From NCBI GenBank assembly GCA_945949525.1, contig CAMFES010000013.1:1-33430 (forward strand): DNA of 33,430 nucleotides, in the 5' to 3' direction. Below, in pieces: positions 80 to 33,381 of this stretch (position 1 is the first letter of the stretch; each line of letters starts with the position of its first letter). Position numbers and translations under genes: made by a program. Origin of the DNA: an uncultured Veillonellaceae bacterium (GTDB lineage: Bacteria; Bacillota; Negativicutes; Selenomonadales; Selenomonadaceae). The notes under the pieces were generated by a model. That model made no database searches and was not told the origin of the DNA. It saw only the letters and a list, made by a program, of their open reading frames with translations.

Positions 80-2420
<2,341 letters not shown>

Positions 2421-2421
<1 letters not shown>

Positions 2422-3350: not shown

Positions 3351-3353
3351 AAT

Positions 3354-4469
3354 CTACACCCTGCTGACACCGGTTACGCTTCCCGCTTGTACGCTGAAAT
3401 ACTTCTCCATGCCCTGATGGGAAAAATAAGCCTCATCAGTAGCCGTAATCAATGTCTGTATGCCTTCCCTGTCAATAAAGGACAAAAGCTGCTGCCGCCT
3501 GCCGGCATCCAGCTCGCTCATCACATCATCCAGAAGCAGGATGGGATACTCACCAGTTTCTGAGCGGATAAACTCCAGCTCGGACAGCTTCATGGACAAT
3601 ACTCCCGTTCTTTGCTGTCCCTGGGAGCCAAAGCTGCGGAGGTTGATGCCATTGACCGAAACAGCAATATCATCACGATGGGGCCCCACACTGGTAATCC
3701 CCCTGTATATATCCTCCTCGCCTAAACGGGTCAGCATGTCATTATACCATATTTTCAGATTTTCCGCTATCTCTTCCCCTTCACTGCCTTTTATCTGATA
3801 GACAATGCTGAGATTTTCCTCGTTGCCGGAAATGCGCTTCTGCATGAGATTGGCCAGCATATTGAGCTTTTTGACCGCCTCCATGCGCTTGGTGGTTATT
3901 TTCGCCGCACTTTCTGCCAGCTGGGGATTCCAGTAGTCCAGCATATCCCGCTTTGCCCTGCGCTCCCGGATTTCCTTTAAGAGCGAATTCCTCTGCTGCA
4001 AAATCCGGTTGTACCTGACAAGCTCGTGATAGTAGGCCGGGCTGGCCTGGGAGATTTCCATGTCCAGAAACCTGCGCCTGCCTGCCGGAGCCCCTTTAAT
4101 CAGCAGCAAATCATCCGGAGCAAACAGCACTACATTGACAGCGCCAATCAGCTCCCTAACGGAGATTTTTCTGCCGTTATAGGAAATAGTGCGCCTCTTG
4201 TCCTTATAAAACCTGAAGTCCAGCTGATTTTCCACCCCCAGCCTCTGAAAGCTCAGGGATATGCTTCCCTCGGAGGAATTCCAGCGAACCAGCTCACTGT
4301 CGGTATTACTGCGGAATGAACTGCCAGCTGCCGCATAATAAACAGCCTCAAGGATATTGGTTTTACCCTGGGCATTGCAGCCGATAAAAATATTCAGATT
4401 TTCATGAAAGGCTAATTCAAGCTTTTCGTAATTCCTATAATCAATGAGCTTGAGGTTCCTGACCTTCAT
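3354..4469 (-). CDS. recF: DNA replication/repair protein RecF
   Basis: SMC-like ATPase that binds gapped DNA with RecO and RecR and promotes RecA loading. The protein has 371 residues, the usual family length. The Walker A motif is GCNAQGKTN near residues 30-38. The ABC-type signature region (FGSQGQQRTGVLSMKLSE) and Walker B (ILLLDDVMSELD) are near the C-terminus. The ATG lies 3 bases after the S4-gene stop, and the last codons of recF contain the ribosome binding site of the next gene. This dnaN-S4-recF arrangement is the standard Firmicute origin operon. Confidence 0.97.
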   Translation of the reverse strand: MKVRNLKLIDYRNYEKLELAFHENLNIFIGCNAQGKTNILEAVYYAAAGSSFRSNTDSELVRWNSSEGSISLSFQRLGVENQLDFRFYKDKRRTISYNGRKISVRELIGAVNVVLFAPDDLLLIKGAPAGRRRFLDMEISQASPAYYHELVRYNRILQQRNSLLKEIRERRAKRDMLDYWNPQLAESAAKITTKRMEAVKKLNMLANLMQKRISGNEENLSIVYQIKGSEGEEIAENLKIWYNDMLTRLGEEDIYRGITSVGPHRDDIAVSVNGINLRSFGSQGQQRTGVLSMKLSELEFIRSETGEYPILLLDDVMSELDAGRRQQLLSFIDREGIQTLITATDEAYFSHQGMEKYFSVQAGSVTGVSRV

Positions 4470-4472
4470 TGC

Positions 4473-4703
4473 CTACTGCACCCCGGTTTCCTCTGCTGCC
4501 ACCTGCCAGCAGCCCACGTCCTTTATCTCCACAACGTCCCCTGCAGAAAGACGCCTCCTCCTGGCCGTTTCAAGCCTGCCGTTTACCGTAATCAGACCTT
4601 CCTCCAACAGAATTTTAACCTGACCGCCAGCCTCAACGGCACCAGCCCATTTCAAGAACTGGTCCATCTGAATTGTTTCCGTATGAATAGCTATCTTTTC
4701 CAT
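4473..4703 (-). CDS. yaaA: S4-domain RNA-binding protein (YaaA type)
   Basis: 76 residues with an S4 RNA-binding fold: IQMDQFLKWAGAVEAGGQVKILLEEGLITVNG is the helix-turn plus the typical L-I-x-V-N-G strand. Single-domain S4 proteins between dnaN and recF are a hallmark of Firmicute origins (YaaA in Bacillus). In Bacillus this protein is linked to ribosome assembly; that role is taken from the family. AAGGAG sits 7 bases before the ATG, in the 13-base gap after dnaN. The gene is certainly real because of its conserved place and tight spacing. Confidence 0.93.
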   Translation of the reverse strand: MEKIAIHTETIQMDQFLKWAGAVEAGGQVKILLEEGLITVNGRLETARRRRLSAGDVVEIKDVGCWQVAAEETGVQ

Positions 4704-4716
4704 ACCCGCTCTCCTT

Positions 4717-5823
4717 TTAGCTCCTTACAGGAGTGACAATATAGACAAAATTAGGTTCGCTTTCTGTCCTGATGCCGGCCGAGCTAAGAGGCCCATTCAG
4801 TGATAGAGTAAACTCAGGGGATTTAATGAGCTTCAAGCAGTCATTGATATAGTCGGCATTAAAGGAAATCCTGATATCGTCGCCATTTATTACCGCTGAG
4901 CCATACTCCTCACCATTGCCGATTTCTGGATTGGCAGAACAAATCTTGACCATGCTGTTGGCAAACTCCATTGTTATTACATTATAATCATTGGTCCTGG
5001 AAATCAGGGCGATACGGTCAATAATTCCCCTGATTTCATCTGTCTTCAGTGTGATGGACGTCTTGAACTCCACCGGAATAACCCTGTGATAATCCGGGAA
5101 CTGACCTTCAATCAGGCGGGAAGAGATGTATACATTATCCACCTCAAAGCTGATTTGGGTCGGACTGCAGTTGATATGCACGGTTCTCGGCATATCGGAC
5201 TGCAGAATCTTCTGCAGCTCATTCAGGAGCTTGGACGGAATAATCAGCTTCTGCTCCCCCTGAAAATCATCCAGCGTATCTGACTTGACAGCCAGCCTGT
5301 GGGTATCCGTAGCAGCCATGAGGATGGAATCGTCCTTCAGCTCCAGCAGGCAGCCTGTAAAAATAGGGCGGCTCTCCTCATGGGAGCAGGAAAAGGTGGT
5401 ATTGAGAATCAAATCACGCAGAATGACGTCAGAAAGCTGAAAGCTGCTGCTTCCTTCCAGTTTTGTAATGGTAGGATAATCTGTGGCATCCATGCTCAAA
5501 AAAGAAAATTTGGAACGATTGGATTTGATATAGACCATTTTTTCCTGGCTGCTGTATTCAAAATCAACAGTAGTGCCCGGCAGGCGACGGATAACCTCCT
5601 GGGCATAACGTCCTGCCAGCACGATTTCTCCAGGAATCTCAACATCTGCCTCTATATTGCAAATAATGCCCATCTCATAGTCCGTTGTCTGCAATGTGAG
5701 CCTGTTGTTTTCTGCCTTCATATAGATACCTGACAGGATAGGGGTTTGTGGCTTGGGGGATACGGCCTTCATTACAATTTGTATGGCCTGGACAATATCT
5801 TCCTTTTGGCAATTGAATTTCAT
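4717..5823 (-). CDS. dnaN: DNA polymerase III sliding clamp (beta subunit)
   Basis: The ring-shaped processivity clamp of the replicative polymerase. About 368 residues, within the normal range. It starts MKFNCQKEDIVQAIQIVMKAVSPK, contains the clamp landmarks SGIYMKAENNRLTLQTTDYE, ATDTHRLAVK and GQFPDYHRVIP, and ends YIVTPVRS, the typical clamp C-terminus. An in-frame GTG lies 9 bases further upstream, but AAGGA is 10 bases before the ATG at 5821-5823 and only one base before that GTG, so the ATG is preferred. It lies downstream of dnaA in the same direction, separated by the first origin region. Confidence 0.97.
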   Translation of the reverse strand: MKFNCQKEDIVQAIQIVMKAVSPKPQTPILSGIYMKAENNRLTLQTTDYEMGIICNIEADVEIPGEIVLAGRYAQEVIRRLPGTTVDFEYSSQEKMVYIKSNRSKFSFLSMDATDYPTITKLEGSSSFQLSDVILRDLILNTTFSCSHEESRPIFTGCLLELKDDSILMAATDTHRLAVKSDTLDDFQGEQKLIIPSKLLNELQKILQSDMPRTVHINCSPTQISFEVDNVYISSRLIEGQFPDYHRVIPVEFKTSITLKTDEIRGIIDRIALISRTNDYNVITMEFANSMVKICSANPEIGNGEEYGSAVINGDDIRISFNADYINDCLKLIKSPEFTLSLNGPLSSAGIRTESEPNFVYIVTPVRS

Positions 5824-6081
5824 GTTTTGCACATCCTTTAGTTATTATTACTCTTTAATATTTTTAAAGTTTTAGTAGACGTCATAGTAGAGGGTGTGGA
5901 AATGGTGGATAAGTGCGATATTGGTGCGAAATCATTCACATTTTTGCTGTGCATAATCTGTGAATGAAAATTGCGGCAGGCAGAAAAATTATCCACAAAA
6001 TTAACAGAACAAATGCTGGTGGTAAATTATCCACAGCTCATCTACACATCACTTCACCCTTTATCCACATATTTTTTATGG
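5824..6081. other. oriC: oriC, dnaA-dnaN part: DnaA box cluster and AT-rich stretch
   Basis: Three perfect TTATCCACA boxes read on the plus strand at 5989-5997, 6027-6035 and 6061-6069, and TTATGCACA reads on the minus strand at 5948-5956. One-mismatch boxes lie at 5932-5940 (TCATTCACA), 5959-5967 (minus) and 904-912 bases into the 5000s, i.e. 5904-5912 (minus). Next to dnaN, 5838-5876 is almost pure A/T and is the best candidate for the unwinding element. In Bacillus the unwinding site also lies between dnaA and dnaN, so this half is probably where strands open. Box calls are direct matches; the unwinding role is inference. Confidence 0.82.
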
Positions 6082-6110
6082 ATAAAAGAGCCGGGCAAAG
6101 CTACCCGGCT
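6082..6110 (-). terminator. Rho-independent terminator after dnaA
   Basis: On the minus strand a 7-bp GC-rich stem (AGCCGGG / CCCGGCT, loop TAGCTTTG) is followed by CTTTTAT, 6 bases past the dnaA stop. It would separate part of dnaA transcription from dnaN. Confidence 0.75.
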
Positions 6111-6115
6111 GCATC

Positions 6116-7555
6116 TTACATTTTTTCAATGCTCTTGATAAGCTCCTGCACGGTCTTGTCAAGCTGAATATTCGAGGTTCTGTCCTTGGCTATCTTCTTG
6201 TAAGCGTGGAGAACCGTGGTGTGGTCGCGGCCGCCGAAAAACTCTCCAATCTGCGGCAGGGAGGTATCCGTCAGCTCACGGCAGAGATACATGGCAATCT
6301 GCCGGGGTACGGCAAGGTTTTTGTTGCGCTTGCTTGAATTCAGGTCGTCAATGTTGAGCTTGAAATGGCTGGCTACAACCTCCCTGATAATTTCCAGCGT
6401 AATCTCCTTGGTGGTGTTGTCAGGGAAGATGTTCTTCAGTGATTCAGCCACCAGCTCCGTGGTAATCTTGCTGCCGGTCAGCGAAGCGTAGGCAACAACT
6501 CTGGTAAGGGCTCCCTCCAGCTCTCGGATGTTGTTGTCAATGCGTCCTGCGATGTAAATCAGGGCTTCATTTGGCACATCCAGGTTTTCCAGCATGGCCT
6601 TCTTTTTCAGAATGGCTATGCGTGTTTCAAGGTCAGGCACCTGAATATCGGCCAGAAGACCGCTGGCAAAGCGCGACTTCAGCCTTTCCTCCAGGGTCTG
6701 AATCTCATGAGGCGGCCGGTCGGAGGAAAGCACGATGGCCTTGTTTGACTGATAGAGGGCGTTGAAGGTGTGGAAAAATTCTTCCTGGGTCTGAATTTTT
6801 TTCGTCAGGAACTGCACATCATCAACCATCAGAAGGTCAATGTGGCGGTATTTCTGGCGGAAAGCCTCGGTAGAATTATCACGGATGGCATTAATCAGCT
6901 CATTGGTAAATTTTTCGCAGGTGATGTAGAGTACCCTTTTGGTAGGGTCATTCTTCAGCACCTCATGGCCGATGGCGTGCATGAGATGGGTCTTGCCCAG
7001 GCCTACACCGCCGTACATGAAGAGGGGATTGTAGGTCTTTCCAGGTTCCTTGGCTACCGCCAGGGCGGCCGCATGGGCTATTCTGTTGAAGCCGCCGGTG
7101 ACAAAATTGTCGAAAACGTACTTTGGATTAAGGGATGAGGCATCGCCAGGTGCAATCTTGGCAAAGGAGGCTTCATATCTGGCAGAGCTTTCCTCAGTTC
7201 TGCCAAAATCCAGGCTTCCCTGCACGGTTTCTTCCCTGACCTCCACGGCCTTCGGCTTTTCGACTATTTTTTCGGCGGGTCTGTATTCCAGGGAAAAGGT
7301 TATTTCACCCTGGATATCACTGGTGAAATCCAGCTTTTTGCAGGCTTCCTTGCAGGCATCCTGGGTAAAATCCTTGTAGCGTTTTTCAAAAAACTGGATA
7401 ATAACCTCGTTGTCGGCACTGAGGGTCAATGTGTTGTTTTCAAAGGAAACAGGCTTCAGCGGCTTGAGCCAGCGCTCGATGGCGCCGGGAGAAAGAAAAT
7501 TTTCTACCTCTGCCAGAATGGTTTCCCAGAATTCATCTAACTGTGTCTGTAGCAT
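6116..7555 (-). CDS. dnaA: Chromosomal replication initiator DnaA
   Basis: AAA+ initiator that binds DnaA boxes and melts oriC. From the chosen ATG it has 479 residues. Domain I is at the N-terminus ([27 protein letters not shown]), then a variable linker to about residue 140, the AAA+ core with Walker [10 protein letters not shown] (about 182-190) and Walker [11 protein letters not shown], and the C-terminal DNA-binding domain with the signature [15 protein letters not shown]. The ATG at 7553-7555 has GAGG 10 bases upstream. A longer frame from a GTG at 7588 would include that site and is rejected. DnaA boxes immediately upstream (7581-7632) suggest autoregulation by DnaA, as in many bacteria. 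Confidence 0.98.
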
Positions 7556-7850
7556 AAGATAATGACCTCGCAAAAAAAATTTATCCACCGATAAAGAAAT
7601 TTATCCACATCTGTGAATAAAAGTGTGGATAAATCAATAAAAAAGTGGAAGGAAGCTGTAAAATAAACATGTTTCCTTCTATATTATATTGCAATCAGTA
7701 ACTCAATAAACAATATGTGAATAAGTATCGTGAAAGACCTCTAATATTCTATCAAAATAAGAGAAAGTTATCAACAGAAAATGTGGGATAAAAACTAAAA
7801 AATCTAATTTTATCCCATTAAAACGTAAATTTATCCACAATGGTAAAGGA
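7556..7850. other. oriC: oriC, upstream part: DnaA box cluster between dnaA and rpmH
   Basis: This gene-free stretch (the gap to rpmH is about 415 bases) has perfect TTATNCACA boxes at 7601-7609 (plus), 7612-7620 (minus), 7624-7632 (minus), 7716-7724 (minus) and 7831-7839 (plus). Near matches are TTATCCACC at 7581-7589 and TTATCAACA at 7768-7776. The boxes close to dnaA face each other in opposed pairs and would overlap the dnaA leader. A possible dnaA -10 (TATAAT, minus strand) is at 7683-7688 without a convincing -35. An interrupted repeat (GAAGGAA / TTCCTTC) lies near 7648-7679. Confidence 0.82.
7784..7817. repeat. 10-bp perfect inverted repeat inside oriC
   Basis: TGGGATAAAA (7784-7793) and its exact complement TTTTATCCCA (7808-7817) flank a 14-base A/T-rich centre. 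Each arm contains TTATCCCA, one base away from a DnaA box core, so the arms may be weak DnaA sites or a binding site for another origin protein. No T-run follows in either direction that would suggest a terminator. Confidence 0.6.
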
Positions 7851-7857
7851 AAAGTGC

Positions 7858-7886
7858 TTGACACGCCTCCGGCAGTAGTCTATAAT
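7858..7886 (+). promoter_or_regulatory. Consensus sigma-70-type promoter for rpmH
   Basis: TTGACA (7858-7863), 17-base spacer, TATAAT (7881-7886): a perfect match to the housekeeping consensus. Transcription would start near 7893, giving a leader of about 80 bases before rpmH. The nearest DnaA box is 19 bases upstream of the -35. Confidence 0.88.
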
Positions 7887-7971
7887 CTTTGGTAGTTTAA
7901 ATTCAATATAGACTGTGTAGATTGGGTTTGACCGGGTTTTTACTCGTAAGTATATAAGGAGGTGCATTACG

Positions 7972-8106
7972 TTGAAGCAGACTTATCAGCCTAACAATCA
8001 TTGGAAGAAGAAGACTCATGGCTTTCGTGAGCGCATGAAGACTAAGGGTGGCCGTCAGGTATTGGCTCGTCGCCGCGCAAGAGGCAGAAAGAAGATTTCA
8101 GCATAA
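7972..8106 (+). CDS. rpmH: 50S ribosomal protein L34
   Basis: 44 residues, beginning [18 protein letters not shown] and ending in the Arg/Lys-rich tail [12 protein letters not shown], which is diagnostic for bacterial L34. It starts with TTG at 7972-7974, preceded 8 bases upstream by the very strong ribosome binding site AAGGAGGT (7956-7963). L34 sits in the large ribosomal subunit. rpmH-rnpA next to dnaA is conserved across bacteria. Confidence 0.97.
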
Positions 8107-8110
8107 TATT

Positions 8111-8137
8111 AGGTCACCTCGGTGACCTATTTTTATT
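8111..8137 (+). terminator. Hairpin with T-rich tail between rpmH and rnpA
   Basis: The 18-base palindrome AGGTCACCTCGGTGACCT is followed by ATTTTTATTAT, 4 bases after the rpmH stop. It is probably a partial terminator that lowers rnpA expression relative to the abundant L34 protein, because no new promoter is evident before rnpA. Confidence 0.65.
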
Positions 8138-8178
8138 ATCAGGGAAGCATATTGTATGCCTTGAATGGAGTTTTCTTT

Positions 8179-8526
8179 ATGTACAAATTACCGAAGGTGC
8201 GTATTCTGCGTCGAAAAAACGATTTTCAGAGAATTCACCGTTTCGGAAAATCTTATGCTAACAGGTATTTGGTGATGTATGTCTTTACAGCAAGCGGGCT
8301 GGAGGGCAGGGTAGGGTTTGCCGCCGGCAAAAAGCTGGGCAATGCAGTTACGCGTAATCGAGTCAAACGGCTTATGCGTGAATGCTACAGGCTGAATCAG
8401 CAGAAGATTGACAAAAGATATACGCTTCTGCTGGTGGGCAGAAAAGCGGCAACTACCGAAAAATGCGATGTTATCGAGAAGGCTTTTCTCAGCTTGGGTA
8501 GAAAAGCGAATATTTTGAAGGGATGA
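8179..8526 (+). CDS. rnpA: Ribonuclease P protein component
   Basis: Protein cofactor of RNase P, which removes 5' leaders from pre-tRNAs. 115 residues from the chosen ATG. It shows the family features [28 protein letters not shown] and the RNR signature in [20 protein letters not shown]. The ATG at 8179 has GGAG 8 bases upstream (8167-8170); an in-frame ATG at 8122 lies inside the upstream hairpin and is rejected. The stop overlaps the yidD start (ATGA). Confidence 0.96.
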
Positions 8527-8741
8527 TAAAGGTGAAGAAGGTTTTTCTTTTCCTGATAGGTGTATACAGAAGGTATATTTCACCGTTAAAATCCCCTTGC
8601 TGTCGCTATATTCCTACATGTTCGGAGTATGCGATGATAGCTGTTGAAAGATACGGAGCCGCAAGGGGCGGCTGGCTCGCCCTGAAGCGCATCCTGCGCT
8701 GCCACCCTTTTCACCAGGGCGGCTATGATCCGGTTCCGTAG
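8523..8741 (+). CDS. yidD: Membrane protein insertion efficiency factor YidD
   Basis: 72 residues of the YidD family, which assists YidC-dependent membrane protein insertion. It shows the conserved block [58 protein letters not shown], with the three family cysteines and the closing HPF-GGYDPVP; positions are residues 15-72. The start overlaps rnpA by 4 bases (ATGA). rnpA-yidD-yidC is the usual order. Confidence 0.95.
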
Positions 8742-8759
8742 TATAAAGGACGTGTTGAT

Positions 8760-9464
8760 TTGGAATTTATGATGAATCTTTTTGCTCCGCTGGTGCAGAT
8801 ATTCCGCCTGGTGTTTGAGGGCTTTTATAATCTCACTGCGGCTGTTGGCTTTGCCAATTATGGTATTGCCATCATTTTGATGACTATTCTGGTGAAGGCC
8901 ATCATGTATCCGCTGACTGCCAAGCAGGTGCGTTCCATGAAGGCCATGCAGGAGCTGCAGCCTGCCCTGAAGAAGCTGCAGAAGGACTATAAGAATAACC
9001 CTCAGCTTTTACAGCAGAAGATGGCGGAGCTTTACAAGGAGTCCGGTGTCAATCCGCTGGCAGGCTGTCTGCCGCTTTTGATTCAGATGCCTATTCTGAT
9101 GGGTGTTTACTACTGTCTGTACGACTACAGTTATTCCGGTGATCCGACTTTTCTGTGGCTCACCAGCTTGTCAAATACGGATCCTCTGTATGTGCTGCCT
9201 ATTCTGTCTGCCCTGACTACCTATATACAGCAGAAGCAGACTATGGCCAACAACGGTCAGGATAATCAGCAGATGAAGATCATGAGCTATATGATGCCTC
9301 TGTTTATCGGCTGGATTTCTCTTAATTTCCCATCCGGACTGGTTGTTTACTGGGTAACCATGAACATCTGCCAGATTGCACAGCAGTGGTACATGTTCCG
9401 CAGCGACAAGAAGCTGGACGTTACAGTAGAGGATACTGAGGAAAGCGGTAAGAAGAAGAGGTAA
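8760..9464 (+). CDS. yidC: Membrane protein insertase YidC/Oxa1
   Basis: 234-residue inner-membrane insertase. It lacks the large periplasmic domain of proteobacterial YidC and shows no lipobox such as Bacillus SpoIIIJ has, so it is a minimal Oxa1-like form. Membrane segments are visible at about residues 28-50 (ANYGIAIILMTILVKAIMYPL), 105-120, 140-160 and 175-205, with the cytoplasmic hairpin ELQPALKKLQKDYKNNPQLLQQKMAELYKESGVNPLAGCLP between the first two. Arg in the AKQVRSMKAMQ segment lies at the end of the first helix, as expected for the hydrophilic groove. It starts with TTG at 8760, with AAAGGA 9 bases upstream; the ATG at 8769 is too far from that site. The tail is charged and Lys-rich. 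Confidence 0.95.
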   Translation: MEFMMNLFAPLVQIFRLVFEGFYNLTAAVGFANYGIAIILMTILVKAIMYPLTAKQVRSMKAMQELQPALKKLQKDYKNNPQLLQQKMAELYKESGVNPLAGCLPLLIQMPILMGVYYCLYDYSYSGDPTFLWLTSLSNTDPLYVLPILSALTTYIQQKQTMANNGQDNQQMKIMSYMMPLFIGWISLNFPSGLVVYWVTMNICQIAQQWYMFRSDKKLDVTVEDTEESGKKKR

Positions 9465-9469
9465 AATTG

Positions 9470-10234
9470 ATGGCTGTTGAAATTGAAAAGACAGGAAAAA
9501 CGATAGAGGAAGCCAAGCAGGCTGCTCTTGAAGAGCTGCAGGTTTCCAGCGATTTGGTTGATTTTGAAATATTGGCTGAACCAAGCAAGGGCTTTCTTGG
9601 GCTGATTGGCAGCAAGCCTGCAAGGGTTCTGGCCAGGGTAAGGGAGCTTACTCCTGCTGATAAGGCCAGGAATTTCCTGCGGGATATCTTTGCTGCCATG
9701 AAGCTTGAGGTGCGCATTGAGGTCAGTGAGGCAGAGGATGGCGTTGTCATGAACCTGATTGGTGACAATCTGGGGATTTTGATTGGCAAGCATGGCCAGA
9801 CCCTGGATTCACTGCAGTATCTGTCCAACCTGACGGCCAATAAGGGACTGGTTGAGGAAAAGGTGCGCATTATTCTCGATATTGAGAACTATAGAAGCCG
9901 CCGGGAGGAAACCCTGCGCCGCCTGGCTCTGCGCCTGGCTGACAAGGTACGTCGTACTGGTGAGCGCATTGTGCTGGAGCCGATGAACCGCCATGAGAGA
10001 AAGATTATTCACATGGCGCTGCAGGATAATTATCGCATCTCCACCTATAGCGCCGGGGATGAGCCGTATCGCAAGGTTGTCATTGAGCTGAAGCGGGGCG
10101 GACGCCGTGAGCGCCGGGATTATCGCGACTATCGCAGTAATCGTGAGAATCATTACAGCAGGGAGCCTATTTCTACCGAGGCAGGCAGAACCGCTGATTT
10201 TTCCTACGAGGCTACGGAGCGCGGTGAGGAATAA
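9470..10234 (+). CDS. jag: Jag/KhpB RNA-binding protein
   Basis: 254 residues. A Jag-N domain (about 1-50, VEIEKTGKTIEEAKQAALEELQV) is followed by a KH domain with the GxxG loop in ILIGKHGQTLDSLQYL (about 105-120) and an R3H domain (RIVLEPMNRHERKIIHMAL). The tail is rich in Arg, Tyr and Asp. KhpB proteins bind RNA with KhpA and influence cell elongation and sporulation in Gram-positive bacteria; the role here is by family. The ATG at 9470 has GAGGT 7 bases upstream; a TTG three bases earlier is less likely. It follows yidC by 5 bases. Confidence 0.94.
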   Translation: MAVEIEKTGKTIEEAKQAALEELQVSSDLVDFEILAEPSKGFLGLIGSKPARVLARVRELTPADKARNFLRDIFAAMKLEVRIEVSEAEDGVVMNLIGDNLGILIGKHGQTLDSLQYLSNLTANKGLVEEKVRIILDIENYRSRREETLRRLALRLADKVRRTGERIVLEPMNRHERKIIHMALQDNYRISTYSAGDEPYRKVVIELKRGGRRERRDYRDYRSNRENHYSREPISTEAGRTADFSYEATERGEE

Positions 10235-10272
10235 GCAAATAAAATAGCTGATAGCTGTGAAAGGGCTGTTTG

Positions 10273-10302
10273 CAATTAGTTTATGATGGTATAATCTAAT
10301 TG
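10273..10302 (+). promoter_or_regulatory. Extended -10 promoter inside a 7-bp inverted repeat, before mnmE
   Basis: TGGTATAAT (10287-10295) is an extended -10; no good -35 is seen. The arms CAATTAG (10273-10279) and CTAATTG (10296-10302) enclose it, so a protein bound to the repeat would cover the promoter. The region lies in the 107-base gap after jag. Confidence 0.5.
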
Positions 10303-10341
10303 AAGCGGCTCTTTTTTTGTAGACTGAACGAGGATGAGATT

Positions 10342-11748
10342 ATGCAGCAGGATTATACGATTAGTGCGATTGCCACGGCCATTGGCGAGGGCGGCATAGG
10401 CATTGTTCGCCTCAGTGGTGAGAGGGCGGTAGAGATAGCCGACAGATGCTTTCGTCCGTCGGGGGGGCATCGTCTGACAGAGTGTACGCCGCGGCTGGCG
10501 GTGTTCGGCAGGATATATGACGAGGAAGAGCGATTTGTAGATGAGGCTGTCTGTATTGTGATGAAGGGGCCTCATTCCTATACCTGCGAGGATGTGGTGG
10601 AGCTGCAGTGCCATGGTGGAAGCCTGGTACTGCGCCAGGTGCTGGGGCTGACCTACAGGCTGGGGGCGCGTCCTGCCGAGCCGGGGGAATTTACCAAGCG
10701 GGCATTTTTAAACGGGCGGCTGGATCTCAGCCAGGCCCAGTCGGTCATGGACATGATTCAGGCCAGGACAAAGGCTTCCCTTGAGATGGCTGCAGGCAAT
10801 CTGCAGGGAAGGCTGTCGGAAGCAATAGGCAATCTGCGGCAGGAAATTCTGGAAATTATTGCCCATCTTGAGGCTTCCATTGATTTTCCGGAGGATGATA
10901 TTGAGGAAGTGGCACTGGGCGAAGCTGAGATGAAGGTAGAGCATATCTACAGTGAGGTGCAGGATATTTTAAGCTCCGCTGACAGGGGCAGGATACTTCG
11001 GGACGGGCTCAGAACGGCTATTATCGGCAGGCCCAATGCCGGCAAGTCCAGCCTGATGAATCTTATGCTGGGGCAGGAAAGGGCCATTGTGACAGATGTG
11101 CCGGGAACTACCAGGGACAGCATTGAGGAATATGTGAATATTGGCGGCATTCCTTTAAAGCTGGCAGATACGGCCGGTATAAGGGATACTGATAATCTTG
11201 TGGAGCAGATAGGCGTGGAGCGTGCCTACAGCTACGCCAGGGAGGCGGAGCTGGTGCTGGCGGTATTTGACGGCTCGGACGGGATGCAGGAGGCTGACGA
11301 GCCTATCTGGCACCTTTTGAGCCAGTGCAGTGGCAGGATTATTGTCATACTGAACAAGGCCGATCTGGCGGTGCGGATTGATGAGGATGAAATCAGGCAG
11401 CTGGCCGCAAAAAAAGAGGTTGAAAATCTCTACTGCATTGTAAGTATGTCAGCCAAATCGGGTACAGGGCTGAAGGAGCTGGAGGAAGAGATACAGAATC
11501 TGGCCTTTGGCGGCAAAATCGGCTGGCAGGAATCCGTGATGGTCAGCGATGCCCGTCAGCAGGATATTTTGCGCCAGGCTCTTTTGCTTCTTGAGCAGAC
11601 ACGCATAACCCTGATGAATGGCATGAGCGAGGATTTTGTGGTGATTGATTTGCGTTCAGCCTGGGAAAAGCTGGGGGAGATTACCGGCGATACCATCGGC
11701 GAGGACATTATTGATGAGATATTCAGCAGGTTCTGCATTGGCAAATAG
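10342..11748 (+). CDS. mnmE: tRNA modification GTPase MnmE
   Basis: Works with MnmG to add the (carboxy)aminomethyl group at C5 of wobble uridine in certain tRNAs. 468 residues from the chosen ATG. The N-terminal folate-binding domain starts YTISAIATAIGEGGIGIVRLSG. The G domain has GRPNAGKSS, the DTAGI switch and NKAD. The C-terminus ends FCIGK, carrying the catalytic cysteine of the family. GAGG lies 8 bases before the ATG at 10342; an upstream in-frame ATG at 10300 has no such site and falls at the transcription start. mnmG follows after 28 bases. Confidence 0.97.
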   Translation: MQQDYTISAIATAIGEGGIGIVRLSGERAVEIADRCFRPSGGHRLTECTPRLAVFGRIYDEEERFVDEAVCIVMKGPHSYTCEDVVELQCHGGSLVLRQVLGLTYRLGARPAEPGEFTKRAFLNGRLDLSQAQSVMDMIQARTKASLEMAAGNLQGRLSEAIGNLRQEILEIIAHLEASIDFPEDDIEEVALGEAEMKVEHIYSEVQDILSSADRGRILRDGLRTAIIGRPNAGKSSLMNLMLGQERAIVTDVPGTTRDSIEEYVNIGGIPLKLADTAGIRDTDNLVEQIGVERAYSYAREAELVLAVFDGSDGMQEADEPIWHLLSQCSGRIIVILNKADLAVRIDEDEIRQLAAKKEVENLYCIVSMSAKSGTGLKELEEEIQNLAFGGKIGWQESVMVSDARQQDILRQALLLLEQTRITLMNGMSEDFVVIDLRSAWEKLGEITGDTIGEDIIDEIFSRFCIGK

Positions 11749-11776
11749 CAGAAGGCCTGCTTTTTGAGGTGAGCTT

Positions 11777-13675
11777 ATGTGTAAGGATGATATATTTGTT
11801 GCCGGTGAGTATGATGTGATTGTCATTGGTGCCGGTCACGCCGGGGTGGAGGCGGCCCTGGCTTCAGCCAGGCTGGGATGCAGGACGCTTTTGTCCACCC
11901 TGAGCCTGGATAACATTGCCATGATGCCATGCAATCCCTCTGTGGGCGGACCGGGCAAGGGGCATCTGGTGCGAGAGCTGGATGCCCTGGGGGGGCAGAT
12001 GGGCATCAATGCCGATGAAACCTGCATCCAGTTCCGGATGCTGAATACCGGTAAGGGGCCTGCTGTTCACGCTCTCAGGGCGCAGGCTGACAAGAAGCAC
12101 TACCAGTTCCGCATGAAGGAGGTATGCGAGAATCAGGAGAAGCTTGATGTAAAGCAGCTGCTGATAGATGAGCTGATTGTGGAAGATGGAGCCGTAAAGG
12201 CGGTTCGCACGGAAAATGATGAATACTATCTTTGCAGGGCGGCAATCCTGGCTACAGGAACGTACCTGAAGGGATCTATCATCATTGGTGAGCATACTCA
12301 TACGGGAGGGCCAAACGGCCAGAGGGCGGCGGAGAAGCTTTCAGAATCCCTGCTGGCTGCCGGCATTGAGCTGATGCGGTTTAAGACAGGAACGCCGGCC
12401 AGGGTGGACAGCCGCTCCCTGGATTACAGCAAAATGGAGCTTCAGCCCGGTGATGAGGAGGCAAGAAATTTTTCCTTTATGAGCGATGTGGCTACCCGCG
12501 AGCAGGTGCCATGCTACCTCACCTATACCAACAGCGAAACCCATAAAATCATCATGGACAACATTCACCGCGCCCCTATGGCCAACGGGCTGATAAAGGG
12601 GGTAGGCCCCCGCTACTGTCCGTCCATAGAAACCAAGCTGGTGCGCTTCCCGGACAAGGAGCGGCATCAGCTGTTCCTGGAGCCGGAGGGGAATCACACC
12701 AATGAGGTATATGTGCAGGGCATGTCCACCAGCCTGCCCATGGATGTGCAGCTTGCCTTTTTGCACACCATTCCGGGGCTGGAAAAGGCGAAGATGATGC
12801 GCCCCGGCTATGCCATTGAGTATGACTGCATCAACCCGCTGCAGCTGAAGCCGACGCTGGAATTCAAGAAAATCAGCGGCATGTTTTCAGCAGGGCAGGC
12901 AAATGGTACATCAGGCTATGAGGAGGCCGCCGCACAGGGACTGATAGCGGGAATCAATGCGGCCATGAAGCTGAAGGGGCAGGAGCCTCTTGTCCTGAAG
13001 CGGTCTGAGGCGTATATTGGCGTGCTGATTGACGATCTGGTTACCAAGGGGACCAATGAGCCTTACAGGATTATGACCTCCCGGGCAGAATACCGTCTGC
13101 TGCTCAGGCAGGACAACGCCGATTTGCGCCTGACGCCTATCGGCAGAAAAATCGGGCTGGTAGATGATGCGCGCTGGCAGAGATTCAGCCGAAAAAAGGA
13201 AGCCATTGACAATGCCCTGAAGCTTTTGCAGGGATACATCATCAATCCAAGTCAGGAGATGCAGCAGCTTCTGGCCGGTGCCGGTATGGAAGGCATAAAG
13301 AACAGCCAGACCCTGTACGACTTGCTGCGGCGGCCGGAGGTCACCTATGACCTGGTACAGCCGCTGTTTTCCCTGCCGGAGCTTGCGGATGAGGTAAAGC
13401 AGCAGGTAGAAACTGCCATTACCTATGATGGCTATATCAAAAAGCAGATGGAGCAGGTGGCGCGCATGGAGCGGCTGGAAAACAGGAGAATTCCTGGGGA
13501 GCTTGACTATGCGGATGTGCCGAATCTCAGGGACGAGGCGCGTGAAAAGCTGCAGCTGGTAAAGCCTATGTCACTGGGACAGGCAGGCAGAATATCCGGC
13601 GTATCACCGGCAGATGTGTCGGTGCTGATGATATATCTGGAGCAGCAGCACAGACTGGAGGGAGAAAGGGCATGA
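11777..13675 (+). CDS. mnmG: tRNA uridine 5-carboxymethylaminomethyl modification enzyme MnmG
   Basis: FAD-dependent partner of MnmE. 632 residues, the normal length. It has the dinucleotide-binding motif [14 protein letters not shown] near residue 15, the signature [30 protein letters not shown], the FAD-binding segment [21 protein letters not shown] and the C-terminal GidA-associated helical domain. The ATG at 11777 follows GAGGT by 6 bases. Its stop overlaps the rsmG ATG by 4 bases. Confidence 0.97.
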
Positions 13676-14388
13676 ATTTTCAGGAATATCTCAAGGATGC
13701 GGCAGAGCAGTACGGACTGGTGCTGACTGACAGGATGCTGCGGCAGTTTGATACGTATTTTCAGCTTCTGGTGGAGTGGAACGAAAGAATAAACCTGACA
13801 GCCATTACCGAGCCGAAGGAGGCTGCCATAAAGCACATGGTGGATTCCCTCAGCTGCTGGAATGACAGGTATTTTCCGCCGGGAGCCTCCGTGATTGATG
13901 TGGGAACCGGGGCAGGTTTTCCGGGGATTCCCCTGAAGATTTTCCGGCCGGACATCAGGCTTACCCTGCTGGATTCATTGAACAAGCGGGTAAAGTTTCT
14001 GCAGGAGGTGGCGGACAGGCTGGAGCTGGACTGTGTGCAGTGCGTTCATCTGAGAGCAGAGGAGGGGGCCAGGCAGCCTCTTTTGCGGGAAAAATTTGAT
14101 GTGGCTGTTTCCCGTGCTGTGGCAAGGCTTTCTGTACTGGCTGAATACTGCATGCCTTTTGTCAAGGTGAATGGGTATTTTGTGGCCCTCAAGGGCATGA
14201 AATACGCGGAGGAAATAGCAGAGGGAGCAAATGCGGTCAAGGTGCTGGGAGGCAGCAGCATCAAATCAGTGCCGGTAAGGCTGCCATATATTGACGATAA
14301 ACGGGCCGTGCTTTACATCAAAAAGGTCAGGGCGACCCCAAAGGCCTATCCGAGAAAGGCGGGAACTCCGGATAAAAATCCTCTGTGA
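13672..14388 (+). CDS. rsmG: 16S rRNA (guanine527-N7)-methyltransferase RsmG
   Basis: SAM-dependent methyltransferase acting on G527 of 16S rRNA. 238 residues. The family N-terminus contains [29 protein letters not shown]; the SAM-binding loop is [17 protein letters not shown]; the later [13 protein letters not shown] and KGMKYAEEI segments also match. It overlaps mnmG by 4 bases. The rightward core operon seems to end here; the next gene begins 118 bases on. Confidence 0.97.
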
Positions 14389-15462: not shown

Positions 15463-16065
15463 TTGCTGGAAAATAAGCTTGGGATTTTGAATGCTGCTGA
15501 GCTGGCAAGGACAGAGGAGCAGCTCAGCAAGAAGCGTGCTATGGAAATGTTCGAGGCTGGTTTTTTGGACAGCCTGCAGCCAGGGACTTTTGCCAGCCTG
15601 TCTGCTATTCATCGGCATTGGTTTGGGGGTATTTATGCCTTTGCCGGGGAAATGCGTACAGTCAATATTGCCAAAGGCAATTTCCGCTTTGCTCCTGTGA
15701 TGTATCTCAGGGAGGCAGTGAGCAGCATTGAGAGGATGCCACAGTCTGATTTTGAGCAGATTGTGGAAAAATATGTGGAGATGAATGTGGCGCATCCATT
15801 TCGGGAAGGGAACGGCAGGAGCATGCGCATCTGGCTGGATGTTATTTTGAAGGCGGAGATAGGGCGTGTGGTGAATTGGAGCCGCGTGGACAAGGAAGAA
15901 TATCTTTTGGCCATGGAGCGCAGCCCGGTCAGGGATATTGAGATAAAGCATCTGCTGCAAAATGCCCTGACGGATAAGATTGATGACAGGGCTGTGTACA
16001 TGAAGGGTATTGATTATAGCTATTACTATGAAGGGTATGCGGAATATAGAACTGAGGATTTGTGA
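15463..16065 (+). CDS. Fic family AMP-transferase, class III-like (C-terminal self-inhibition)
   Basis: 200 residues, almost exactly the size of single-domain Fic enzymes such as Neisseria NmFic. The catalytic loop HPFREGNGR begins at His111 and the flap region is near residues 68-75 (NIAKGNFRF). Near the C-terminus, residues 186-191 read SYYYEG, matching the inhibitory motif (S/T)xxxE(G/N). In class III Fic proteins this helix blocks ATP gamma-phosphate binding through its Glu, here Glu190. The Tyr right after the Ser (Tyr187) corresponds to the self-modified tyrosine described for NmFic. It starts with TTG at 15463, with AAGGAGGG 8 bases upstream and its own promoter. FicT-type relatives AMPylate GyrB and ParE; the target here is not shown. 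Confidence 0.93.
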   Translation: MLENKLGILNAAELARTEEQLSKKRAMEMFEAGFLDSLQPGTFASLSAIHRHWFGGIYAFAGEMRTVNIAKGNFRFAPVMYLREAVSSIERMPQSDFEQIVEKYVEMNVAHPFREGNGRSMRIWLDVILKAEIGRVVNWSRVDKEEYLLAMERSPVRDIEIKHLLQNALTDKIDDRAVYMKGIDYSYYYEGYAEYRTEDL

Positions 16066-16551: not shown

Positions 16552-17829
16552 TTATGGCTTCAGGGAGGTTATAGGTATCACATAAACATTATCCTCCCGT
16601 TGATAGGCGGCATTAGTAAGGCCGCAAAGCACGCAGAGAAATTTAGGTTCCTTGCCTTTTCCTTCTTTGGCGATGCTTTCGCGGATACTGCGCAGGTTTT
16701 TGGCAGCGGCATCTATTTGATTGGCACCCAGCTTGATTTCAAAGGCTCCCCATTCGCCGTTGGGCAGTTCTACTATGGCATCAATTTCCTTCCCCTTGTA
16801 GTCCTGATAGTGGAACAGCTTTCCTCCATTGGCCTGGGCATAAATCCACAAATCACGTTCGCACAATGCTTCAAATAAAAAGCCCATGGTTTCCAGGTTA
16901 TTGATAAGGCCATCTACGTTAAGTCCTAACAGGCTGCAGGCAATGGACGGATCTGTCAGATGGCGTTTGCCGGACTGTTTAACCCTTACGGATGAGCGAA
17001 CGCTGGGGCTGAAGGGGGGCTGGTCTTCAATAACATATAATCTGCGGAATACATCAAGATAATCAGCTATGGTTTGGTCACTGATATCTACACCATCAAC
17101 ATCTTTTATGTCCTTTTTCAGTGATTTGTTTGATACAGTGGTAGATTCATTTCGTGCCAGTGATTTTAACAAGCGAATCATCTTGGAGCTATCTCTTTTG
17201 ATTTCATCCAGACGATTGGCACCATCATCAATAATTGCATTAATATAGCCATGAGGAAGTAAATAGGCCTTTTCCTCCGGCACGGTAATGCCTTGTGGCC
17301 ATCCGCCCCTGACAATCAGCTGGGCCAATCGTTTTAATGGTACTTCACCGGTCAGTTGAGTTTTGCTTTCTCCTATGAACAAGGAATGTAACGATACCTG
17401 TCCGTCAGAATCGCCAGATTCCCATAGTGACATTGTTCTCATGCGTAGAGGAGCGATGCGTCCGGCCCCGCTATGCATAATACCTTTTCGTATGGGGGTA
17501 GATGAGCCGGTCAGCACAAATTGTCCCTGCTTTTGCCTGATATCTACCTCGTATCGCACTGCGTCCCAGATACTGGTAACCTCCTGCCATTCATCAATAA
17601 GCCGGGGGGGTTTGCCCTGCAAAATAGTTGCTGGATCCAGGCTGGCCAGGGTTCTGTTTTGGAAATTATTGGCTGGATCACCTAGCATAAACTTGCTTTT
17701 ACAGCTGTTTTCTGCTGTCCATGTCTTTCCGCACCACTTGGGGCCTTCAATGCAAATGGCACCAAATGCTTGCAGATAGTCTTTTAACAGGCTGTCTATT
17801 ACCCTGGGACGATAGTTTCTTTTTGGCAT
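16552..17829 (-). CDS. AAA_14/DUF4143 family ATPase
   Basis: 425 residues. Walker A is GPKWCGKT (29-36), Walker B is PRLIDEW, and a sensor-like LTGSST follows: the pattern of AAA_14 ATPases. The C-terminal half carries DUF4143, with the nuclease-like segment YQDYKGKEIDAIVELPNGEWGAFEIKLG near residue 355, which has the D-x(n)-E-x-K arrangement (EIDAIV ... AFEIK) of PD-(D/E)xK folds. These ATPases are widespread, often solitary and without known role; defence or mobile-element links have been suggested but not settled. The ATG at 17829 is preferred because GAGG lies 8 bases upstream; a GTG at 17838 overlaps that site. It is flanked by AT-rich DNA and by a set of iterons (next entry). Confidence 0.9.
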   Translation of the reverse strand: MPKRNYRPRVIDSLLKDYLQAFGAICIEGPKWCGKTWTAENSCKSKFMLGDPANNFQNRTLASLDPATILQGKPPRLIDEWQEVTSIWDAVRYEVDIRQKQGQFVLTGSSTPIRKGIMHSGAGRIAPLRMRTMSLWESGDSDGQVSLHSLFIGESKTQLTGEVPLKRLAQLIVRGGWPQGITVPEEKAYLLPHGYINAIIDDGANRLDEIKRDSSKMIRLLKSLARNESTTVSNKSLKKDIKDVDGVDISDQTIADYLDVFRRLYVIEDQPPFSPSVRSSVRVKQSGKRHLTDPSIACSLLGLNVDGLINNLETMGFLFEALCERDLWIYAQANGGKLFHYQDYKGKEIDAIVELPNGEWGAFEIKLGANQIDAAAKNLRSIRESIAKEGKGKEPKFLCVLCGLTNAAYQREDNVYVIPITSLKP

Positions 17830-17838
17830 TTTATACAC

Positions 17839-17933
17839 CTCACTTTGTCAAATTTACCAATCTGACTTTTATATATTTACTGTTTTCACTTTAATATATT
17901 TACTATTTTCATTTTATCAAATTTACCAATCTG
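17839..17933 (-). repeat. Four 23-bp iterons upstream of the DUF4143 ATPase
   Basis: Read on the minus strand, GTAAAT begins at 17926, 17903, 17880 and 17857, exactly 23 bases apart. Each unit reads GTAAAT(T/A)T(A/G)..AAA(A/G)T(G/C). The outer two units share the longer 17-mer CAGATTGGTAAATTTGA; the inner two share GTAAATATAT. The fourth unit runs into the GAGG ribosome binding site of the ATPase. The array covers the predicted promoter, which fits an operator set for repeated cooperative binding about two helical turns apart. It is not a CRISPR: there is no unique spacer between units. Confidence 0.85.
17893..17920 (-). promoter_or_regulatory. Promoter of the DUF4143 ATPase, embedded in iterons
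   Basis: On the minus strand TTGATA (17915-17920) and TATATT (17893-17898) are separated by 16 bases, each one mismatch from consensus. The -35 lies in iteron 1 and the -10 in iteron 2; transcription would begin in iteron 3. Binding to the iterons should therefore repress. Confidence 0.55.
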
Positions 17934-18018
17934 CTTCAATCACATTTTTATGAATTAGTAATTATTATCATTGAGAGAGCTTACAGCTTTTTACAAAGAT
18001 ACTTTTTTTGTACATAGC

Positions 18019-18047: not shown

Positions 18048-18096
18048 TAATGAAAAATAGAAGCATTTCTTATATAGGTATGTTATTTGTCCTCTC

Positions 18097-18126
18097 CTGA
18101 GATACAAAATATCAATTGTATCTTAG
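18097..18126 (+). promoter_or_regulatory. Leader hairpin before the MBOAT gene
   Basis: CTGAGATACAA (18097-18107) pairs with TTGTATCTTAG (18116-18126) with one G-U pair and an 8-base loop. A run of G residues follows, not T, so it is not a simple terminator. It may be a leader control element or protein site; no known riboswitch class is recognised. Confidence 0.45.
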
Positions 18127-18174
18127 GGGGGGACTTTTGTTGTTTTACCAGATATTTGTAAGGAGATGGTGTAA

Positions 18175-22777: not shown

Positions 22778-22794
22778 GTTGAGAGGTGAAAGGG

Positions 22795-32271: not shown

Positions 32272-33381
32272 TTAAGTATATTTTTTCAATAGCAGCAGAT
32301 TGAGCTTATAAAATTTTTTTCTGTTGCGCTGTATTATGATAATATGTTCATTGGGCATAGCTTGCAACCTGCTTTTTATGGTGTTTGTTGATTTGCCAAG
32401 AAGTTTTGATAATTCCTGCATGGTAATGCCTTGCCCATAAAGCAGGCTGGCTTGGAAAAGCAACTTGTATATATCTTGAGATAGTGCATCTTCTGAAATT
32501 TGTTCCAGAATAGCCAGGTTCTTTTTATACTGAGCCAGTTTTCGTTGCAGCAGGGCAATAGTATCATTAACAGCCTGATGGATTATCTGCAAGAAGCCTG
32601 TTACAAATGGTGTCAGGTCACCGCAGTTGTTTTCGTCATCAGTGAGAGAAAAAAGGTCGTAATAATCTTTCCTGTTTTTTTTGATGGTGATTGATATGCG
32701 CAGGGCAACAGTATAATGCAATACCTGGGTTAATTGATATGAAGTCAGGAATCTGGCGGTTCTGCCATTACCATCATAAAATGGATGAATATAAGCGAAA
32801 AGGTAATGACAAAGTGTCGTGTTAATAAGGACGGGCAAATCTTTGTCATTAAAGATGCCAAGAAGCATTTCAATATAAGTGATGATTTTGCTTTCCGGGT
32901 ATACGCCTCTGTGAATGGATTTTCCCGTGGGAGCTTCTATGTCTACCGAGCCTGCCCGGAAAATCTTGCCATCAAGGCGATTGGCAGCATTTTCAACTAT
33001 AACCTCGTCATGAGCGAATTCATCATAAAACTGCCGCAGGTCATGGCAGGTGGCAAAAGAAATTTCTTTTTGGTTTGTCAGCAGGTGATATTTATAGATG
33101 GTGCTGACATAACGTGTTCCTTTTTTGAGGGAAGACATGGCATCCATGAGTTCACGCCTGGTACTGTGGACACCTTCGATTTCATTACTGGATTTTATCT
33201 CGTCTATAATACATAATAATGCTAACTGCTTCAGTACGATTTCAGGCGTAACGGCTACGATTGGCAGCAGCTTGTTATTAGCAGACAGAATATTTTCCTG
33301 TAGCTTGGCTATTTCTGTTGTCAGGCAAAAAAAGGCAGGATAGTCTTTGTTTCTGTTATACTGCCTGATAGGAATATTAAC
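32272..33381 (-). CDS. Fic family protein, 5' end interrupted (possible pseudogene)
   Basis: The conserved open frame is 369 codons. The Fic motif HPFYDGNGRTAR is intact, and the C-terminal GITMQELSKLLGKSTNTIKSRLQ (near the end) is a winged-helix-like module found in many Fic proteins. The first in-frame ATG is at 33147, but conserved sequence continues upstream of it: LLPIVAVTPEIVLKQLALL and, at 33172-33189, SNEIEG, the N-terminal (S/T)xxxE(G/N) self-inhibition motif. There is no ATG, GTG or TTG between 33147 and an in-frame TGA at 33382-33384; an ATG at 33405 would be cut off after 7 codons (MFSVCEV). Either a nonsense or frameshift mutation has broken the 5' end, or a rare start is used. 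A protein started at 33147 would lack its inhibitory helix. Confidence 0.75.
   Translation of the reverse strand, partial: VNIPIRQYNRNKDYPAFFCLTTEIAKLQENILSANNKLLPIVAVTPEIVLKQLALLCIIDEIKSSNEIEGVHSTRRELMDAMSSLKKGTRYVSTIYKYHLLTNQKEISFATCHDLRQFYDEFAHDEVIVENAANRLDGKIFRAGSVDIEAPTGKSIHRGVYPESKIITYIEMLLGIFNDKDLPVLINTTLCHYLFAYIHPFYDGNGRTARFLTSYQLTQVLHYTVALRISITIKKNRKDYYDLFSLTDDENNCGDLTPFVTGFLQIIHQAVNDTIALLQRKLAQYKKNLAILEQISEDALSQDIYKLLFQASLLYGQGITMQELSKLLGKSTNTIKSRLQAMPNEHIIIIQRNRKKFYKLNLLLLKKYT

Follow-up and report, generated by a model that had tools for sequence, protein, structure and literature searches.

A conserved, protein-matched, operator-like array of 23-bp repeats in front of a DUF4143 ATPase-nuclease gene family

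Introduction

Direct repeats of about 20 bp that adjoin the gene for their own binding protein are familiar from RepA-iteron modules, and Fur offers a well-known case of a winged-helix protein that binds palindromes as a metal-dependent dimer. The Can2/Card1/Cdn1 nucleases are also among the known systems closest to the locus described here. A regulatory parallel is provided by RptR, a dedicated repressor of 9 kDa that represses its own promoter via three direct repeats, 9 bp long with a 6-bp palindrome, overlapping the -10 element of a phage-defence island, as far as the accessible part of that account goes (PMC12255303).

The gene in question encodes a putative member of PDC-S01, which in the accessible text ranks fourth in abundance among the defences of all prokaryotes, 9986 instances being given for archaea and 29494 for bacteria (PMC12988326), and which the accessible part of a rumen survey names as the most frequent individual locus (PMC13356809). 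According to the same text, experimental validation is pending for most such defence candidates (PMC12988326), and the phage-defence role of the family is a prediction made by others (PMC12988326, PMC13356809). In the parts of these two accounts accessible to us we found no mechanism for PDC-S01 and no mention of repeats, and DUF4143 is absent from both main texts. A literature search for DUF4143, COG1373, AAA_14, PDC-S01 and 23-bp repeats, with bioRxiv and most subscription journals outside its scope, returned no description of the repeats that we report here.

Results

The window, by which we mean the whole stretch of 33,430 nucleotides analysed (contig CAMFES010000013.1 of assembly GCA_945949525.1, from an uncultured Veillonellaceae bacterium), carries on its minus strand an ATPase-nuclease gene preceded by direct repeats with a 23-bp period. 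The earlier note had reported GTAAAT on that strand at 17926, 17903, 17880 and 17857, and the exact 23-base spacing was confirmed. Each unit consists of a box of about 15 bp (AAAT-word-AAT, with a word of 5-6 bases) followed by a degenerate spacer. Scored over 16 positions against the reference AAATNTGATAAARTGA, in a register taken from the homologues, the boxes are as follows:

17932..17947, minus strand: box 0 (degenerate), AAATGTGATTGAAGCA, 12/16, in phase with box 1; contains the -35 candidate TTGAAG
17909..17924, minus strand: box 1, AAATTTGATAAAATGA, 16/16
17886..17901, minus strand: box 2, AAATATATTAAAGTGA, 14/16
17863..17878, minus strand: box 3, AAATATATAAAAGTCA, 12/16
17840..17855, minus strand: box 4, AAATTTGACAAAGTGA, 15/16; its end is overlapped by the RBS-like GAGGTG

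The earlier count of four iterons thus stands for four boxes matching at 12-16 of the 16 positions, but the array probably has five units, with the fifth at 17947-17932. This box 0 rests on its phase, because the window has 20 minus-strand sites with as good a match (12/16); the repeat segment, as computed in the family-wide upstream scan, begins at box 0 (-118). The suggestion that the ribosome binding site merges with the fourth iteron was borne out by the overlap of GAGGTG with box 4. Self-identity of the region 17839-17936 at lag 23 was 0.72, with all other lags from 5 to 39 at or below 0.52, and TRF called a repeat of period 23 over 17852-17932. The array reached a run score of 39 against a best of 17 elsewhere in the window (outside 17801-18000; lags 12-60), and in 1000 first-order Markov shuffles of the region the maximum was 22, so that none attained 39. 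The units are contiguous with a 23-bp period, not repeats separated by unique spacers of repeat length as in a CRISPR array, and an Rfam search gave a single sub-threshold match (E 0.71), located outside the array.

A scan of genome contigs for relatives of the gene yielded 33 loci with best-segment identity of 86-49%, ranging from Selenomonas to Mycoplasmopsis, Akkermansia, Sphaerochaeta and a Thermoplasmata archaeon. When the best tandem period among 12-59 was sought up to 200 bp upstream of the match in this first set (the 33 loci and the window), it was 23 in 30, 46 in three and 22 in one (L020) of the 34; a best period of 23 was found in 18 of 795 control windows, also 200 bp long and taken elsewhere in these loci. 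The two highest-scoring of the 18 were themselves further arrays of this kind, one before the second paralogue of L016 and the other just downstream of the gene in L015, where a second array copy lies at 1634-1694 in the same orientation, just 3' of the ATPase gene. L020, the upstream sequence of which is the same as that of L135, has a 22-bp repeat and an N-terminus unmatched by the close query, and was excluded from the unit analyses. Among 21 extra loci from whole genomes, plasmids and phage-labelled contigs (L043-L063), the best period was 23 in 20 and 69 in L044; the arrays of L050 and L056 are weak (scores 9-10), and L043 equals L007 in its first residues, array score and position. Plasmid-borne copies with an array occur in Bacteroides, Collinsella, Prosthecochloris, Lentilactobacillus and, weakly, Actinomyces. 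Among the rumen bacteria with an array are Anaerovibrio lipolyticus (L008) and Schwartzia succinivorans (L007).

A held-out set of 55 loci, four of them untestable, gave a best period of 23 in 43 of 51, 46 in four, 32 in two, 18 in one and 12 in one. The 23-bp score was at least 13 in 47 of the 51 and lower in L141, L164, L170 and L171, L164 being counted among the 43 with a score of only 8. L141 and L170 (genome G538) have a best upstream period of 32 although they are members of the 23-bp subfamily. The earlier note had named repeat-free homologues as the outcome that would count against its reading; nearly all subfamily homologues have 23-bp arrays (33/34, and 47/51 held-out). The held-out arrays have 3-4 boxes in 37 of 46 cases (range 2-6). 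The units of an array mostly agree well in the box and poorly in the spacer, and this unit-identity analysis, together with the phase analysis of the first set described below, used 43 of 52 arrays after near-copies and truncated genes were dropped. At three 5'-truncated ATPase genes, L032 (array at 2403-2511), L035 (2402-2484) and L045, the array lies at or beside the truncation; in L032 the box word is identical to the codons where the gene breaks off, which points to a recombination event involving both array and gene. A blind search with a generic DNA pattern found arrays in 0 of 398 genomes and a search of viral contigs for one box word found none, both being too strict to inform, and a scan of viral contigs with the ATPase protein detected no relative.

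Two promoter candidates of the window overlap the array:

17911..17939, minus strand: TTGAAG-17-TAAAAT, with TG before the -10, 9/12
17893..17920, minus strand: alternative candidate TTGATA-16-TATATT, 10/12, the choice of the earlier note

The -35 and -10 placed earlier in iterons 1 and 2 can therefore be recognised within the array, but a second candidate exists and neither is secure, because four promoter-like sites were counted in the region on both strands against 2.6 (sd 1.7) in shuffles. By eye, the candidate at 17939-17911 looks conserved in L003 and L004, which have a similar TTGAAT/TTGAGT..TAAA(A/G)T. The start codon of the ATPase gene is GTG at 17838 or, as homologues suggest, ATG at 17829.

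Across the family, the best sigma-70-like promoter was sought from the array start onward. In the first set its -35 fell within three adjacent array phases in 26 of 43 arrays, while sets of scrambled hexamers averaged 14.6, equalled the 26 in 2 of 150 trials and always stayed below the real mean promoter score. With the phases from the first set applied to the held-out arrays (46 of 51, after removal of four scoring below 13 and of L161, which duplicates L023, from both the phase and the code tests), the -35 was found at the expected phase in 34 of 46 (null mean 7.5, 0/100). The promoter score was below 6.5 in 19 of 86 classed arrays; among the 67 with a score of at least 6.5, a box lies between -35 and -10 in 34, directly upstream of the -35 only in 21, and in neither position in 12. 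This last class includes the window itself (L001), L003 and L004, in which the array covers the -10 region and continues to the RBS; the best promoter phase of the window differs from that common in the family, and its promoters are weak. The sites overlap the core promoter of their own gene, and since either geometry would put a bound protein on that core promoter, this speaks for repression, with activation by the upstream box being possible in the class that has a box only upstream of the -35.

The protein encoded behind the array has the following features:

16552..17838, minus strand: AAA_14 + DUF4143 ATPase-nuclease gene (Pfam PF13173, PF13635; PADLOC PDC-S01)
17722..17745, minus strand: GPKWCGKT, residues 29-36 from the ATG at 17829, which we take to be the Walker A motif
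16957..17190, minus strand: predicted winged helix, residues 214-291 (AlphaFold2 model; Fur-like structural matches)
17041..17079, minus strand: third helix (putative recognition helix), residues 251-263 (AlphaFold2 model and covariation; residue 252 at 17074-17076)
16666..16896, minus strand: PD-(D/E)XK core, residues 312-388 (motif conservation, AlphaFold2 model, structural matches)

The Pfam scores lie well above the gathering cut-offs (PF13635, 102.1 against 28.1 bits; PF13173, 47.4 against 27), and the scan returned AAA_14 and DUF4143 only, with no Rep-family domain of an iteron-type replicon. PADLOC models for PDC-S01 match the protein, the best being PDLC04790 (3.9e-58, residues 5-423; judged without a PADLOC cut-off, the tool giving none), which makes it a candidate member of this common group of predicted phage-defence genes; it joins an ATPase to PD-(D/E)XK, as PDC-S01 likewise does in the accessible description (PMC12988326). 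The AlphaFold2 model predicts an NLR/STAND-like ATPase, a winged helix and an intact PD-(D/E)XK core, in that order. Compared over the NBD-winged-helix fold, identities to PABY2304 (2qen) and SSO1545 (2fna) are 9-15%, the N-terminal part of the model being of low confidence, and a PDB search by sequence profile gave 0 hits. Since E320, D350, E364 and K366 of the PD-(D/E)XK core are invariant in 23 sequences, nuclease catalysis is probably kept.

To the earlier alternative of the ATPase itself or a partner as binder, the neighbourhood and the words of the boxes both bear. In an all-versus-all comparison of ORFs from 45 loci with flanks of up to 3 kb, no gene recurred with the array beyond near relatives. 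Apart from the ATPase, only four ORF clusters spanned at least four loci, all of minus-strand ORFs, and 85 of their 87 members overlap the ATPase gene antisense; among the 14 largest clusters, those outside the ATPase gene join near relatives only, in 2-3 loci each. A nearby partner regulator was rejected on this basis. The word of the array, on the other hand, follows the protein. A protein clade present in Erysipelotrichaceae, Clostridiaceae and Acholeplasma has GGTCA-type boxes, and a second clade has ACCGAA-type boxes; in L016, where one paralogue of each clade stand in tandem, the two arrays differ and each resembles those found elsewhere with its own clade, and in G592 and G482 three testable genes have three words each. 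Protein and array distances correlated with r = 0.61 (46 of 52 arrays, the other six having no full-length protein; 0/2000 permutations, which, as in all covariation analyses here, ignore phylogeny), and with r = 0.41 among pairs more than 35% different.

With overall distance regressed out, residues 250-260 ranked top for the word in the first set (r = 0.34, n = 33, after near-identical rows and the most distant ones were taken out of the 46 pairs), where 100 permutation maxima had a mean of 0.14 and a highest value of 0.26, and spacer columns gave 0.08. The same residues came top again in the held-out scan (r = 0.27, n = 44 of 46, 0/200), in which residue 252 was first of 363 single columns. 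The nulls of these initial scans sampled every fourth window, and a stricter null was then taken over all windows: residues 246-256 were top in the first set (0/1000, n = 32), more weakly when all 41 rows were used (r = 0.25, 5/1000), and residues 250-260 in the held-out set (0/1000). Within the protein, residues 246-260, at the predicted recognition helix, are therefore the best predictor of the word. A code fixed beforehand, which makes column 10 of the unit depend on residue 252, gave the correct base in 23 of 37 held-out arrays, namely those of the 46 with residue 252 in the code (permutation mean 13.5, 4/5000). At columns 9 (21/37, 5/3000) and 13 (11/37, 19/3000) these predictions likewise did better than permutation, so the code is not confined to column 10. 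Over 87 rows, the first 41 of which shaped the code, N252 occurs with T10 in 9/12, K with G in 11/14, D with C in 11/18, E with G in 8/14 and P with A in 6/9; the code is partial, E252 going with C10 in 5/14 and D252 with G10 in 6/18. Residue-base pairs of this kind are chemically familiar. They can be illustrated by a pair chosen after looking, L016b (DTD, ..GACCGAATGA) and L137 (DTN, ..GACTGAATGA), which are 64% identical. By APC-corrected mutual information over 7912 pairs in this small sample (41/46 rows), residue 252 with column 10 was not in the top 25. Keeping in mind the absence of a recurrent neighbour, the agreement of word and clade and the covariation with the protein's own predicted recognition helix, we favour the ATPase itself as the binder; modelling gives the gene product a putative DNA-reading domain that, indirectly, appears to match the sites.

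In its own genome (82.6% complete), the two-unit motif was found at this array only, with no regulon seen elsewhere, and a single box with up to three mismatches occurs in three places, two of them at the array. The same genome has one distant relative of the ATPase gene by BLAST, and three DUF4143 profile matches at E<=1e-12 including the gene itself. Among 16 genomes of the genus, including this one, seven have any match (E<=0.001), and a close full-length match is confined to G000 and G001. A 94-bp 5' piece in G009 and a 3' piece of about 50 bp in G004 (L087 and L086) both adjoin a relative of the gene that starts at 22786 in the window, about 5 kb further on; we take them for decayed copies of the ATPase gene, and a 23-bp array was not seen upstream of the 5' piece. 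In the window itself, a strong terminator-like stem of 19 pairs lies on the plus strand at 18089-18134, between the ATPase gene and the next gene. By eye, 80-14388 is presumably a replication-origin gene cluster (gyrB, recF, dnaN, dnaA, yidC, mnmE, mnmG, rsmG), and we take the ORFs at 15463-16065 and 32272-33147 to carry HPFxxGNGR-type (Fic-like) motifs.

The 23-bp array was not found before the more distant DUF4143 genes of the genus (L002, L037-L040, L042). It was likewise lacking in 28 of 30 DUF4143 loci of the family, a sample drawn from a longer list with start sites chosen roughly, the two exceptions being the window and L102 of the same subfamily. A group of about 409 aa, BLAST-linked to the window protein, often has a large palindrome upstream (for example L091, L092, L095 and L096; only 8 shuffles per locus). 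In these loci, as in L002, L038, L039, L040 and L042, the large palindrome lies over the promoter/RBS; CGACTAATTTATAATTGAATTATAAATTAGTCG is an example from this set. In a group of about 440 aa the best period was 32 or 33 in 10 of 13 loci, five of them above all 60 shuffles, and among the loci found with L099 (25, of which 24 testable, two already in the former sample) it was 32 or 33 in 14 of 24, again with five above all 60 shuffles. Examples of 32-33-bp repeats are L099, L104, L190, L198, L203 and L204; in more than half of the loci some shuffles score as high. Three scanned members of the 409-aa and 440-aa groups also match PDC-S01 models, and PDLC04790 fits the palindrome subfamily better than the window protein (L096, 1.6e-103). 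Self-specific upstream repeats of subfamily-typical layout may, judging by these sequences, be a general habit of DUF4143 genes.

Discussion

Cumulatively, these data describe an array that resembles an operator, is conserved in a family of ATPase-nuclease genes and matches the protein encoded behind it. We consider it probable, from sequence comparison and modelling, that the array serves the ATPase-nuclease as a private operator and that the ATPase acts as its own repressor via the winged helix. The earlier reading of an autoregulatory operator of a DUF4143 ATPase gains support from the conservation of the array and from the covariation of word and recognition helix. In the mechanism that we propose, the winged helix of one ATPase subunit would read each box of about 15 bp, and several subunits would line up on mostly 3-4 boxes, 23 bp apart, over their own core promoter, so that in the resting state the bound subunits would keep transcription low. 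In STAND/NLR proteins the winged-helix domain moves upon nucleotide exchange; the same switch could detach the protein from its operator and unleash the nuclease, so that triggering the sensor would bring a burst of synthesis. That the protein binds the array, that it represses and does not activate, that its subunits cooperate, that binding is coupled to the switch and that the gene acts against phages are all inferences. The second array of L015, downstream of the gene, counts against an operator, which does not need it.

The presumably active PD-(D/E)XK core, with its four invariant residues, brings to mind an unlikely use of the array as an address for the nuclease: the protein would load on it and cut there or from there, in self-destruction, as a sensor of replication or infection, or in homing, with the overlap with the promoter being secondary. 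Breaks at the array could cause truncations such as those of L045, L032 and L035, but these are three loci for which other explanations are available; moreover, a phase fixed to the core promoter is unexpected for a mere cut site, and an uncontrolled cut site in its own chromosome should harm the cell. The arrays on both sides of the gene in L015 would also suit an iteron-type replication origin, a centromere or the end of a transposon, as part of a mobile element that travels with the gene. The gene is patchy in the genus (any match in 7/16 genomes, two of them close and full-length, with remnants in G009 and G004), its relatives occur on plasmid records and phage-labelled contigs, and Orc1/Cdc6 is among the weak fold matches; keeping the array in promoter phase, having no recurrent partner gene and showing other repeat layouts at the same place in other DUF4143 subfamilies nevertheless make such an element quite improbable.

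That the operator serves a different, unlinked regulator is scarcely to be expected, as the words follow the clade of the adjacent ATPase, even between paralogues in one genome, and covary with its predicted recognition helix. The region is AT-rich by eye, and chance or AT-rich drift might have been suspected of producing the repeats; this was rejected, its probability being next to nil, on the lag identity, the 0 of 1000 shuffles and a period conserved across phyla, since a constant 23-bp period in homologues of diverging sequence leaves no room for drift.

Returning to the ATPase as reader of its own operator, we venture, with less than even confidence, a wider proposal. One of the most common putative defence genes would encode an NLR-like sensor-nuclease whose winged helix doubles as a sequence-specific repressor, making the immune switch a transcription switch as well. 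Each copy would have a private word, with the first turn of the recognition helix as its main determinant (for example Asn252-T10, Asp252-C10, Lys252-G10), so that paralogues in one cell would not cross-regulate, and other DUF4143 subfamilies would use other layouts (32-33-bp repeats, large palindromes) to the same end. A self-operator hints at how the cell restrains a sensor-nuclease that could do it harm and, being conserved, would offer a handle on PDC-S01 by providing both a ligand (the box) and an assay (gel shift, reporter). The array also helps to define start sites and orthologous groups, and the pairs of array and protein form a natural data set for a winged-helix recognition code.

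Compared with RepA-iteron modules, the gene lacks a Rep-family domain by Pfam, and the repeats stand in promoter phase in most relatives. The likeness to the winged helix of the Fur family is one of fold only. Relative to STAND/NLR ATPases such as the archaeal PABY2304 (2qen) and SSO1545 (2fna), a PD-(D/E)XK domain is fused here and the winged helix, as modelled, appears to read DNA. Like RptR, as far as the accessible part of its description goes (PMC12255303), the ATPase would presumably repress its own promoter through direct repeats; unlike that small dedicated repressor, the presumed reader is the ATPase-nuclease itself, and its repeats lie 23 bp apart with no palindrome seen.
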